The position numbers and the translations under genes were made by a program. A model generated the notes under the pieces. It made no database searches and was not told where the DNA came from. It saw nothing but the letters and a program-made list of their open reading frames with translations. Positions 2,312 to 29,598 of a stretch of 64,000 nucleotides of DNA are shown piece after piece. The stretch's first letter is position 1. Every line of letters starts with the position of its first letter. Origin of the DNA: Candidatus Baltobacteraceae bacterium (GTDB taxonomy: Bacteria; Vulcanimicrobiota; Vulcanimicrobiia; Vulcanimicrobiales; Vulcanimicrobiaceae); assembly GCA_035502855.1 (NCBI GenBank), contig DATJTX010000021.1, forward strand, positions 186,001-250,000, read 5' to 3'.

Positions 2312-3534
2312 CGCGCCCTGGAAGCAAGCTGCGCCATCACGTCGTCGATACGAACGCCGGCTTGCTGCATACGAACCGAAAGAAAGTACAACAAATCTGC
2401 GCATTCCCAGGCGACCTCGTCGCGCGTGGCCGCTTGCGCCACTTCTTCGGCCTCCTCCAGCAGCTTCGCGCGTAGCAGTGCCGGATCGCGCAGAAGTTTG
2501 CGCGTATACGAGCGCTCGTCGCCGGTTCGCGCGCGCTGTTCGATGCGCTGCGCGAGCGTGCTCCACGAAAAGGCGGGTGTGCCAAAGCAGCGTTCGGCGC
2601 CGGTATGACAGGTCGGCCCCGACTGATCGACATAGAAGGTGAGCGCGTCGCGGTCGCAATCGAGATCGACGCGCACCAGTCGCTGCGTCGCGCCGGAAGT
2701 TTCGCCCTTGCGCCAGAGCGCGCGGCGTCGCCGGCTAAAGTAGACGCCGACGCCGTCGCGCAGCGCCGAGCCGAGCGATTCGCGTGAAGAATATGCCAGC
2801 ATGCGCACGCCTCGATCGCCGCTGTCGCACACGACGGTCGGTATCAAGCCGTCCCCCTTGGTGAAATCCAGCAGCGCGAGAACCGCTTCGACGGGGTCGA
2901 TGCGCCCGGTATAGAGCGCCATCCCGACCTGCGCATCGATTCCCAAACGATCGAGCGCGACGATCTCGTCGATTGCGGTGATGCCGCCGGCGATCGTCAA
3001 CGAACCCTCGATGCGCGCTCGCAGCGCCTCGGCGGAGGCGAGATCGATGCCGCCGAGCAATCCCTCGCGCTCGATATCGGTGTAGAGAAAGCCGGCGCAA
3101 TAGGGCTGCAAGCGCAGCGCGCGATCGAGCGGTGTCTCGTCCGTTTGCGTGCGCCAGCCTTCGACTGCCACGCGGCCGGCGCGCGCGTCGAGCGCGACGA
3201 GGACGCGTTCGCGCGGAAGTGCTTCGAGGAATTCGGGCGTTGCGGCGGTGCCGACGATCAACGACGCCGCGCCCCCGCGTAGATAGCGCTGCGCGCGCTC
3301 GAGGTCGCGAATACCGCCGCCGACGCGGCACCGTGCGAGGCGGCAGAGCCGCAAGATCAGCTCGGTGTTCTCGCCCTCGCCGAACGCCGCGTCGAGATCG
3401 ATCACGGCGATCTCGCCGAAGCGTCCAAAACGCTGCGCGAGTTCGACCGCGTCGTCGACTTCGAGCACCTGACGCCGGCCTTGTTCGAGCTGCACGGCTT
3501 TCCCGCCGCGCAAATCGATGCTGGTGACGATCAC
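2308..3534 (-). CDS. hisA: Trifunctional HisA-HisI-HisE fusion
   Basis: One uninterrupted 408-aa frame contains three histidine-pathway enzymes. Residues ~1-223 are HisA (ProFAR isomerase, TIM barrel) with the catalytic-type aspartates at 7 (SIDLRGGK) and 116 (ALDARAG). Residues ~224-318 are HisI (PR-AMP cyclohydrolase) with LWRKGETSG, the metal-binding DxDxD at 290-294 and CHTG at 309-312. Residues ~322-408 are HisE (PR-ATP pyrophosphatase), with LLEEAEEV and an ECADLLYF helix. HisI-HisE fusions are common, but adding HisA at the N-terminus is unusual. The GTG start overlaps the hisF TGA (GTGA); an upstream ATG would overlap hisF by 34 bp and add a non-family leader. All catalytic signatures look intact, so three activities are inferred. 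Confidence 0.93.
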   Translation of the reverse strand: MIVTSIDLRGGKAVQLEQGRRQVLEVDDAVELAQRFGRFGEIAVIDLDAAFGEGENTELILRLCRLARCRVGGGIRDLERAQRYLRGGAASLIVGTAATPEFLEALPRERVLVALDARAGRVAVEGWRTQTDETPLDRALRLQPYCAGFLYTDIEREGLLGGIDLASAEALRARIEGSLTIAGGITAIDEIVALDRLGIDAQVGMALYTGRIDPVEAVLALLDFTKGDGLIPTVVCDSGDRGVRMLAYSSRESLGSALRDGVGVYFSRRRRALWRKGETSGATQRLVRVDLDCDRDALTFYVDQSGPTCHTGAERCFGTPAFSWSTLAQRIEQRARTGDERSYTRKLLRDPALLRAKLLEEAEEVAQAATRDEVAWECADLLYFLSVRMQQAGVRIDDVMAQLASRAR

Positions 3535-12787: not shown

Positions 12788-12864
<77 letters not shown>

Positions 12865-27953: not shown

Positions 27954-28926
27954 ACACCAAGCCGTCATTTCGATCGGCACGAACTCGACGCGTGTCGTGC
28001 TGGCCGACATGGCGCCGGATATTCCGCACGTCGATTTGGCCAATTCGATCGGCACGCGCGTCGGCGAGGGGCTGCGCGAACGCGGATCGCTCGGCGAAGA
28101 GCCGATGCGCCGCACGCTCGACGCGGTAAAGCTGCATCTGCGCGCGGTGCGGGGACATTACCTGCGGCTCTTCGTCATCGCCACCAGCGCGCTGCGCCGC
28201 GCCGAGAACGGCGCGGAATTCACCGCGCAGGTCGAGGGGCTCACCGGCGTACCGGTGCAGATTCTCACCGGTGACGAGGAAGCGGCGGCGTCGTATCGCG
28301 GCGCGATCACGGCGTTCGGGCCGCCGCATCCGCAAGCGCTCGGCGTGGTCGACGTGGGCGGCGGAAGCACCGAATACGCGATCGGCGAAGGGCCGGCGCC
28401 CAGCCGCACGATCTCGTGCGAGATCGGCGCGGTTCGCATGACCGAAGAATTGCCGCTCCTGGCAGGTCTCGATGGCGTGGTCGATCTGGACACGATCGAA
28501 CGCGCGCGTGCGGTCGCGCGCGAGGCGCTCGCGCCGATCGCCGAGTTCGCGAAGGTCGCGCATCTGGCTCTGGTCGGTGGTTCGGCCACGACCGTCGCGG
28601 CGTTGCTGCGCGGCAAGAAGACGAAGATCGACACCTACGAAATCTCGCGCAGCGATCTGCAGCGCGCGCTCGTTCGGCTGTGCGCGCTGACGCTCAAAGA
28701 ACGCAAGGCGCTCGACGGGATGAAGCCGCAGCGCGCGGACATTCTGCCGGCCGGCATCATCGTACTCGAAAGCGTGCTCGATATCGCCGGGCACGACCGC
28801 GCGACCGCGACCACCGCCGATCTCTTGCTGGGATATCTGCTCCAGCAGCGCGACCGGGCAGGACGAGCCGGGTACGGCCCCGGATGGAGTCCGCATGGAA
28901 GATCAGGCTATACACCAGCACATTGA
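27946..28926 (+). CDS. Ppx/GppA family phosphatase
   Basis: Ppx/GppA enzymes hydrolyse inorganic polyphosphate or pppGpp and have an actin-like ATPase fold. The 326-aa protein has the second phosphate motif VVDVGGGSTEYA, GDEEAAASYRG (catalytic Glu region), and VGGSATTVAALL. The first motif reads ISIGTNSTR, where the normally conserved Asp (D-x-G-T/S-N-S) is Ser. That might reduce activity. A TTG start at 27946 overlaps the S1 gene by 8 bp. Its 3' end overlaps the DUF2630 gene by 32 bp. Confidence 0.88.
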   Translation: MSKHQAVISIGTNSTRVVLADMAPDIPHVDLANSIGTRVGEGLRERGSLGEEPMRRTLDAVKLHLRAVRGHYLRLFVIATSALRRAENGAEFTAQVEGLTGVPVQILTGDEEAAASYRGAITAFGPPHPQALGVVDVGGGSTEYAIGEGPAPSRTISCEIGAVRMTEELPLLAGLDGVVDLDTIERARAVAREALAPIAEFAKVAHLALVGGSATTVAALLRGKKTKIDTYEISRSDLQRALVRLCALTLKERKALDGMKPQRADILPAGIIVLESVLDIAGHDRATATTADLLLGYLLQQRDRAGRAGYGPGWSPHGRSGYTPAH

Positions 28927-29137
28927 GGACCTGGTCGCCGAGGAGCACCGGCTGCTCGCGCGCGGCGAAGCGGGGCGCCTCATGCCGCCCGAGCGTTTGC
29001 GTCTGGAAGAAGTCCAGGTGCAGCTCGACCGGTACTACGATCTGTTACGTCAACGCCGCGCGCGCCGCGACGCCGGACAAGATCCCGACGTCGTGCACAT
29101 GCGCTCGGCCGATACCGTCGAACACTACCAACAGTAA
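28895..29137 (+). CDS. DUF2630 family protein
   Basis: The 80-aa protein begins MEDQAIHQHIEDLVAEEH and continues with LEEVQVQLDRYYDLLRQRRA, the hallmark pattern of DUF2630, an all-helical family of unknown function found mostly in Actinobacteria and relatives. It begins inside the 3' end of ppx in another frame, with a GGAG-type site upstream. Confidence 0.92.
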   Translation: MEDQAIHQHIEDLVAEEHRLLARGEAGRLMPPERLRLEEVQVQLDRYYDLLRQRRARRDAGQDPDVVHMRSADTVEHYQQ

Positions 29138-29190
29138 CCAGAGGCGACCGAAACCGGGATGATGGTGGAACAGGCAGACACAGCAGACTT

Positions 29191-29475
29191 GGGGTAAGCC
29201 CCTCGAGCCGCAGGATCGGAAACGCCCTGCGGGATGCGCTCAAATTCGGCGAACTCTAACTAGTTGTTACCCTGAGCGTAGGCGCGAAGCGCCGAAGTCG
29301 AAGGGCCGCTACACGACAACGCCGAGCTAAGCGGAATCGCACGTTCGTGCGATTCCCGAAAGTGTAGAGACTGGACGGGCGCGACCTAAACACGTTCGGC
29401 GATGCTGAACATGCATGGCCAAGGCACAGTCCGGACCACAAACGTGAACGCGGTAGCGAAAGCTATAGTGGTGCG
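29191..29475 (+). ncRNA. Group I (IC3-type) self-splicing intron in trnL(UAA)
   Basis: The 285-nt intron follows a U at the 5' splice site and ends with G (omega-G), as group I introns must. Core elements are readable: P AAATTCGGCGAA (29242-29253) and Q CAACGCCGAGC pair as P4. R is GAGACTGGACGG and S is AAGGCACAGTCC, giving P7. A P6 hairpin GGAATCGCAC-GTTC-GTGCGATTCC is also present, and the 3' segment GGTAGCGAAAGCTA resembles P9 of the Anabaena trnL intron. P1 can form between exon CTT and intron GAG. No homing endonuclease is encoded. The comparison with Anabaena is from memory, not an alignment search. Confidence 0.92.
29269..29305. repeat. REP-like hairpin within the intron P5 region
   Basis: An imperfect palindrome reads ACCCTGAGCG...AGTCGAAGGG, with an inner stem GGCGC-GAA-GCGCC (29281-29293). 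It belongs to the widespread CCTGAGC...GTCGAAGG repeat type, another copy of which lies at 29566-29598. It sits between the P5 arms (GTTGT 29264-29268 and ACAAC 29316-29320). Confidence 0.75.
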
Positions 29476-29501
29476 AAAATCTGCAGCTGGAAACAGCGTC
29501 C

Positions 29502-29524
29502 GGGTTCGACTCCCGGTCATCCCA
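29502..29524 (+). repeat. att-like direct repeat, copy 1 (tRNA-Leu 3' end)
   Basis: The last 23 nt of the tRNA (GGGTTCGACTCCCGG and the following TCATCCCA) are repeated exactly at 30235-30257. tRNA 3' ends are classic targets for site-specific integration, where the element restores the tRNA and leaves a copy at the far end. Confidence 0.85.
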
Positions 29525-29565: not shown

Positions 29566-29598
29566 TGTGTCACCCTGAGCTTGTCGAAGGGTGGCACA
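29566..29598. repeat. REP-like palindromic element
   Basis: Arms TGTGTCACCCT (29566-29576) and AGGGTGGCACA (29588-29598) pair with one G-U and surround the core GAGCTTGTCGA. This is the common CACCCTGAGC-TTGTCGAAGGGTG repeat type found in many bacterial intergenic regions. Confidence 0.85.

Follow-up and report, generated by a model that had tools for sequence, protein, structure and literature searches.

A group I intron in the tRNA-Leu(UAA) gene of a Vulcanimicrobiota bacterium and its counterparts in other bacteria and phages

The intron in the tRNA-Leu(UAA) gene (trnL) is the textbook case of a very old intron, common to cyanobacteria and plastids. In its Anabaena-type form, this intron is inserted after U34 and has the IC3 layout; the fold and core motifs of the Azoarcus tRNA-Ile ribozyme, also an IC3 intron, would likewise be those of the intron described here. 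Interrupted tRNA-Leu-TAA genes have been reported for Beggiatoa and Thiomargarita (PMC4853749), and a 2014 review placed all observed phage introns in protein genes (PMC3984707).

The window (the whole 64-kb stretch of DNA that was analysed) comes from a member of the Vulcanimicrobiota (WPS-2/Eremiobacterota); the preliminary description of this DNA was right in calling the host non-cyanobacterial. At positions 29156–29524 lies a gene for tRNA-Leu(UAA) into which a group I intron of 285 nt is inserted directly behind U34. We consider it likely that this is a working IC3-type intron in the only tRNA-Leu(UAA) gene detected, gained once in the class, probably by transfer, and then lost or exchanged repeatedly.

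The split gene and its expected splicing

The exon–intron borders were set by alignment to the precise intronless alleles of eight relatives. In intronless members of the same family, the tRNA halves directly abut each other, the match covering the query to position 41 and resuming at 327; four of the eight intronless relatives were put through ARAGORN and all four were called as tRNA-Leu(taa). The 5′ exon (29156–29190, on the forward strand, as are all features listed here) ends with U34 and is joined in these relatives to the counterpart of the 3′ exon (29476–29524), which begins with A35. The intron itself (29191–29475), delimited by the intronless alleles and backed by a covariance model and the alignment of orthologues, has omega-G as its final base. 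Joining the exons in silico yields an 84-nt tRNA-Leu(taa), whose acceptor, D, anticodon, variable and T arms are all intact. The upstream neighbour, a DUF2630 gene (28895–29137), is common to intron-bearing and intronless relatives, so the tRNA-Leu(UAA) locus is orthologous with and without the intron.

The host genome (3.33 Mb, 97% complete) has 47 detected tRNAs, and its Leu tRNAs besides the split gene carry the anticodons CAA, UAG (two), GAG and CAG. A second, intact tRNA-Leu(UAA) gene, which the preliminary description had named, in combination with unspliced precursor only in RNA-seq, as counting against it, was not found among these 47 tRNAs. Codons UUA are rare but in use, with 12 of the 8966 codons in the long open frames of the window. 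Since UUA is used and no other UAA gene was found, removal of the intron would be needed for reading this codon and splicing should have to work. Judged from its sequence, the window intron would almost certainly be a working group I intron, a ribozyme that splices itself out of the tRNA-Leu precursor. In the precursor RNA, the intron is predicted to fold around P3–P9, with a guanosine bound in P7 attacking after U34, which would be held by the wobble pair of P1; the freed U34 would then attack after omega-G and be joined to A35, giving the mature tRNA-Leu(UAA).

Fold and classification of the intron

In 20 aligned introns of the clade, 99.3% of the pair cells in the P1–P9 structure are standard pairs and 42 cells have changed on both sides. 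None of 500 shuffled controls did as well, and slid controls were 30–41% paired. In an outside set, consisting of introns from other groups, P3, P8, P9a and P9b covary too.

P1 (29188–29207) pairs the exon bases C32-U33-U34 (29188–29190) with the guide GAG (29205–29207), its three pairs being invariant in 20 orthologues, and has a 4-bp extension (29191–29194/29199–29202). The P2 stem (29208–29214/29226–29232), with a GGAAAC loop, shows strong covariation, with two-sided changes in five of its seven pairs. P3 (29235–29241/29377–29383), taken from the alignment of orthologues, covaries across phyla, and P4 (29246–29251/29320–29325) is placed by that alignment and by the fold. P6 (29326–29328/29361–29363), with its P6a hairpin, carries in the window a double change from C-G to U-A relative to the orthologues. 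P7, the guanosine-binding helix (29369–29373/29427–29431), is pseudoknotted with P3 and is found in both the orthologue and outside-set alignments; its last pair is G-C in the Vulcanimicrobiota lineage, where most other groups have A-U. P8 (29384–29386/29417–29419), seen in the fold, has one A-C mismatch, and P9 (29435–29439/29468–29472) includes a GAAA-capped, covarying P9b (29454–29465).

The P5 region (29252–29319) is enlarged by an inserted palindromic repeat that is missing in a relative from the same genus. This dispersed CCCTGAGC..TCGAAGGG repeat (29270–29305) has 21 matches across the genome, itself included, as compared with 0 for the reversed control, and a further copy lies outside the intron, at 29573–29591.

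The window intron thus has the group I core of P3, P4, P6, P7 and P8 with the P3/P7 pseudoknot, a U-G wobble at the 5′ splice site (the U34-G pair, invariant in the 20 orthologues) and omega-G at the 3′ end. The core elements and omega-G recognized in the preliminary description are therefore present: the core helices pair and covary and the last base of the intron is a G. The intron is compact and without P5abc, has a P9 with a small P9b and is homologous to other bacterial tRNA introns; we take it to belong to subgroup IC3.

A trnL-intron covariance model, made from 30 introns of other phyla and phages with the window's phylum excluded, matched 29228–29481 with 124.3 bits (E = 5.6e-31), the sole match in the 64-kb window up to E = 10, and gave 119–151 bits for all 12 Vulcanimicrobiota orthologues tested. 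Together with the intronless alleles and the spliced tRNA, this result confirms the earlier assignment of a group I intron to tRNA-Leu(UAA), split after U34. The search with the Rfam model Intron_gpI (RF00028), proposed at the same time as a check, nominally failed, with no match in the window even at E ≤ 1; the gathering score of this model, a curated score cut-off and no structural feature, is 50 bits. Because the same model gives 30–35 bits (E from 3e-5 to 4e-4), below the gathering score, for three orthologues (L034, L036 and L050) and 61.6 bits for one phage trnL intron, its silence on the window is a matter of model insensitivity. The P5 repeat was rejected as the sole cause of the Rfam miss, as orthologues that lack it either go unscored or do not reach the gathering score.

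It is highly improbable that the window intron is degenerate, has lost splicing or belongs to a pseudogene. Such decay could be read into the A-C mismatch in P8, the repeat inserted in P5 and the lack of an Rfam score, but the core helices are intact, P6 has been altered by a compensatory pair, both exons are perfect and the gene is the sole UAA gene found in the genome.

Distribution, phylogeny and origin

Within the phylum, the trnL intron was found in 49 of 149 genomes (the host's own included; counted from match tables, with matches in other tRNA genes set aside), all of them in two families of one class; the other families sampled from the phylum yielded none at this site. Its presence is patchy even within genera, with intact alleles alongside the intron in g4, g9 and g19. 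A genome from the same family as the host (G005) is identical to QHBJ01000015.1 (Vulcanimicrobiota) over the compared core. Group I introns were also seen in other tRNA genes of the phylum: in related Vulcanimicrobiota, five loci (L492, L493, L494, L495 and L499) have them in a CAU-anticodon tRNA, whose counterpart in the window (12788–12864) is uninterrupted, and three from deeper branches (L496, L498 and L501) have them apparently in tRNA-Tyr and tRNA-His, with exons judged by eye. One match to the Vulcanimicrobiota-type pattern (L505) was due to chance, as no intron follows it.

Introns at the same trnL site also occur in Alpha-, Beta- and Gammaproteobacteria, Acidobacteriota, Planctomycetota, enterobacterial plasmids and viral contigs. 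In bacterial genomes, at least 118 stretches match one intron pattern, mostly in Alphaproteobacteria and otherwise in Beta- and Gammaproteobacteria, Acidobacteriota, Planctomycetota and Vulcanimicrobiota. With a stricter DNA pattern, tRNA-Leu(UAA) group I introns were found in at least 120 viral contigs (L197–L316), and several viral introns carry HNH ORFs; a loose pattern was dropped, as its matches in viral contigs roughly equalled the estimated chance number, whereas the stricter one gave real introns. Borders that splice to tRNA-Leu(taa) were found at 191 loci, of which 117 are viral and 74 genomic. Some cyanophage records contain a similar tRNA-Leu without an intron, and searches of viral contigs, plasmids and phages found no cyanobacterial introns. 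The preliminary description pointed to a site best known from cyanobacteria and plastids: the site is indeed occupied, but it is not special to cyanobacteria, since many proteobacteria, acidobacteria, planctomycetes and phages also have an intron there.

The intron core also has matches in 1255 plasmid records, most of them from enterobacteria. The single record read, pCTX-M3, contains a complete unannotated tRNA-Leu(UAA) gene (L317, positions 2862–3155) near aac(3)-IId, with an intron of the alphaproteobacterial type. In Pelagibacter phage HTVC120P (MH598807.1; H25), a gene with a capsid protein annotation covers a stretch that resembles the core of the trnL intron.

In a tree of 137 core columns, with no cyanobacterial introns among its rows, all 22 Vulcanimicrobiota introns form one clade (support 100/97). 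Closest to this clade from outside stand the intron of LR756511.1, a 595-kb uncultured huge phage, two from Planctomycetota and one from a viral contig, L294 (99/92 together). With a GC content of 48%, the phage intron is poorer in G and C than the Vulcanimicrobiota introns (55–65%), so their grouping is unlikely to stem from similar composition. A clade of Vulcanimicrobiota and Planctomycetota without the phage was not rejected (p = 0.71), and either the phage or the planctomycete introns may be the closest; a clade of Vulcanimicrobiota and Pseudomonadota was rejected (p = 0.0002).

A single gain in the Vulcanimicrobiota lineage appears most likely, because the same gene and site are occupied in two families of one class by introns of one clade; it would have been followed by many losses or exchanges between relatives. 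Repeated recent transfers into single genera, whether carried by phages or through homing or reverse splicing, offer a rather less likely account. They would explain presence and absence within g4, g9 and g19 and the mixing of some introns of families f1 and f3 in the tree, but all 22 introns fall into one clade, most f3 introns cluster together and the window intron is too short for an endonuclease gene. Either a single gain with subsequent losses or recurrent transfer between relatives may fit the current evidence.

How the intron entered the phylum is a separate matter. Cellular introns as one clade were rejected (p = 0.017), so phage and cellular copies interleave, and acidobacterial and gammaproteobacterial copies are intermixed with alphaproteobacterial ones. 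Both observations argue against an ancient, vertically inherited intron, already present in trnL when cyanobacteria, Vulcanimicrobiota and further groups still had one ancestor, and lost many times since, as does the lack of finds at the site in the other sampled families of the phylum. The identical gene and site across many phyla, the single Vulcanimicrobiota clade spanning two families and the precise and frequent intronless alleles speak for such descent; we nevertheless regard it as improbable. The evidence leans to transfer into the phylum, with no donor named; a gain by transfer, with phage tRNA genes as a plausible vehicle, suits it better than does a special line of descent in common with cyanobacteria. 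More tentatively, the trnL(UAA) introns could be a mobile family that circulates on phage-borne tRNA-Leu genes, some with HNH homing endonucleases, and the Vulcanimicrobiota intron could descend from a phage copy. If so, the trnL intron site would be a homing target common to phages and their hosts, and no fossil of early bacteria.

Comparison with known tRNA introns

With introns at the trnL site of numerous unrelated bacteria and of phage tRNA genes, endonuclease-bearing forms in phages and presence and absence within genera, the question of ancient versus transferred introns becomes answerable. Standard tools miss such split tRNA genes: ARAGORN did not call the split tRNA-Leu(UAA) gene in the window, and with Rfam failing as well, genomes can appear to be without an essential tRNA.

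The window intron is like the Anabaena-type trnL intron in its gene, its site between U34 and A35, which is that of the cyanobacterial lineage, its size class and its overall IC3 layout, and differs in its host phylum. It is only 63.5% identical over 137 core positions to an approximate Anabaena sequence; the mean identity of this copy to the Vulcanimicrobiota introns is below that of almost all other trnL introns, which, given such a query, is a lead only. In Beggiatoa BOGUAY and Thiomargarita, which are Gammaproteobacteria, the tRNA-Leu-TAA genes reported as interrupted were given no intron type or structure in that paper (PMC4853749). The Azoarcus ribozyme resides in another tRNA, tRNA-Ile, and has another guide sequence. 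In LR756511.1, the phage's own tRNA-Leu(UAA) gene is split by a window-type intron (L318, positions 2367–3155) that has the same site and the same GAGCC..GGGATGCGCTCAAA architecture and differs in having an HNH endonuclease ORF in its P6 region. The window intron thus adds to the known IC3-type tRNA introns.
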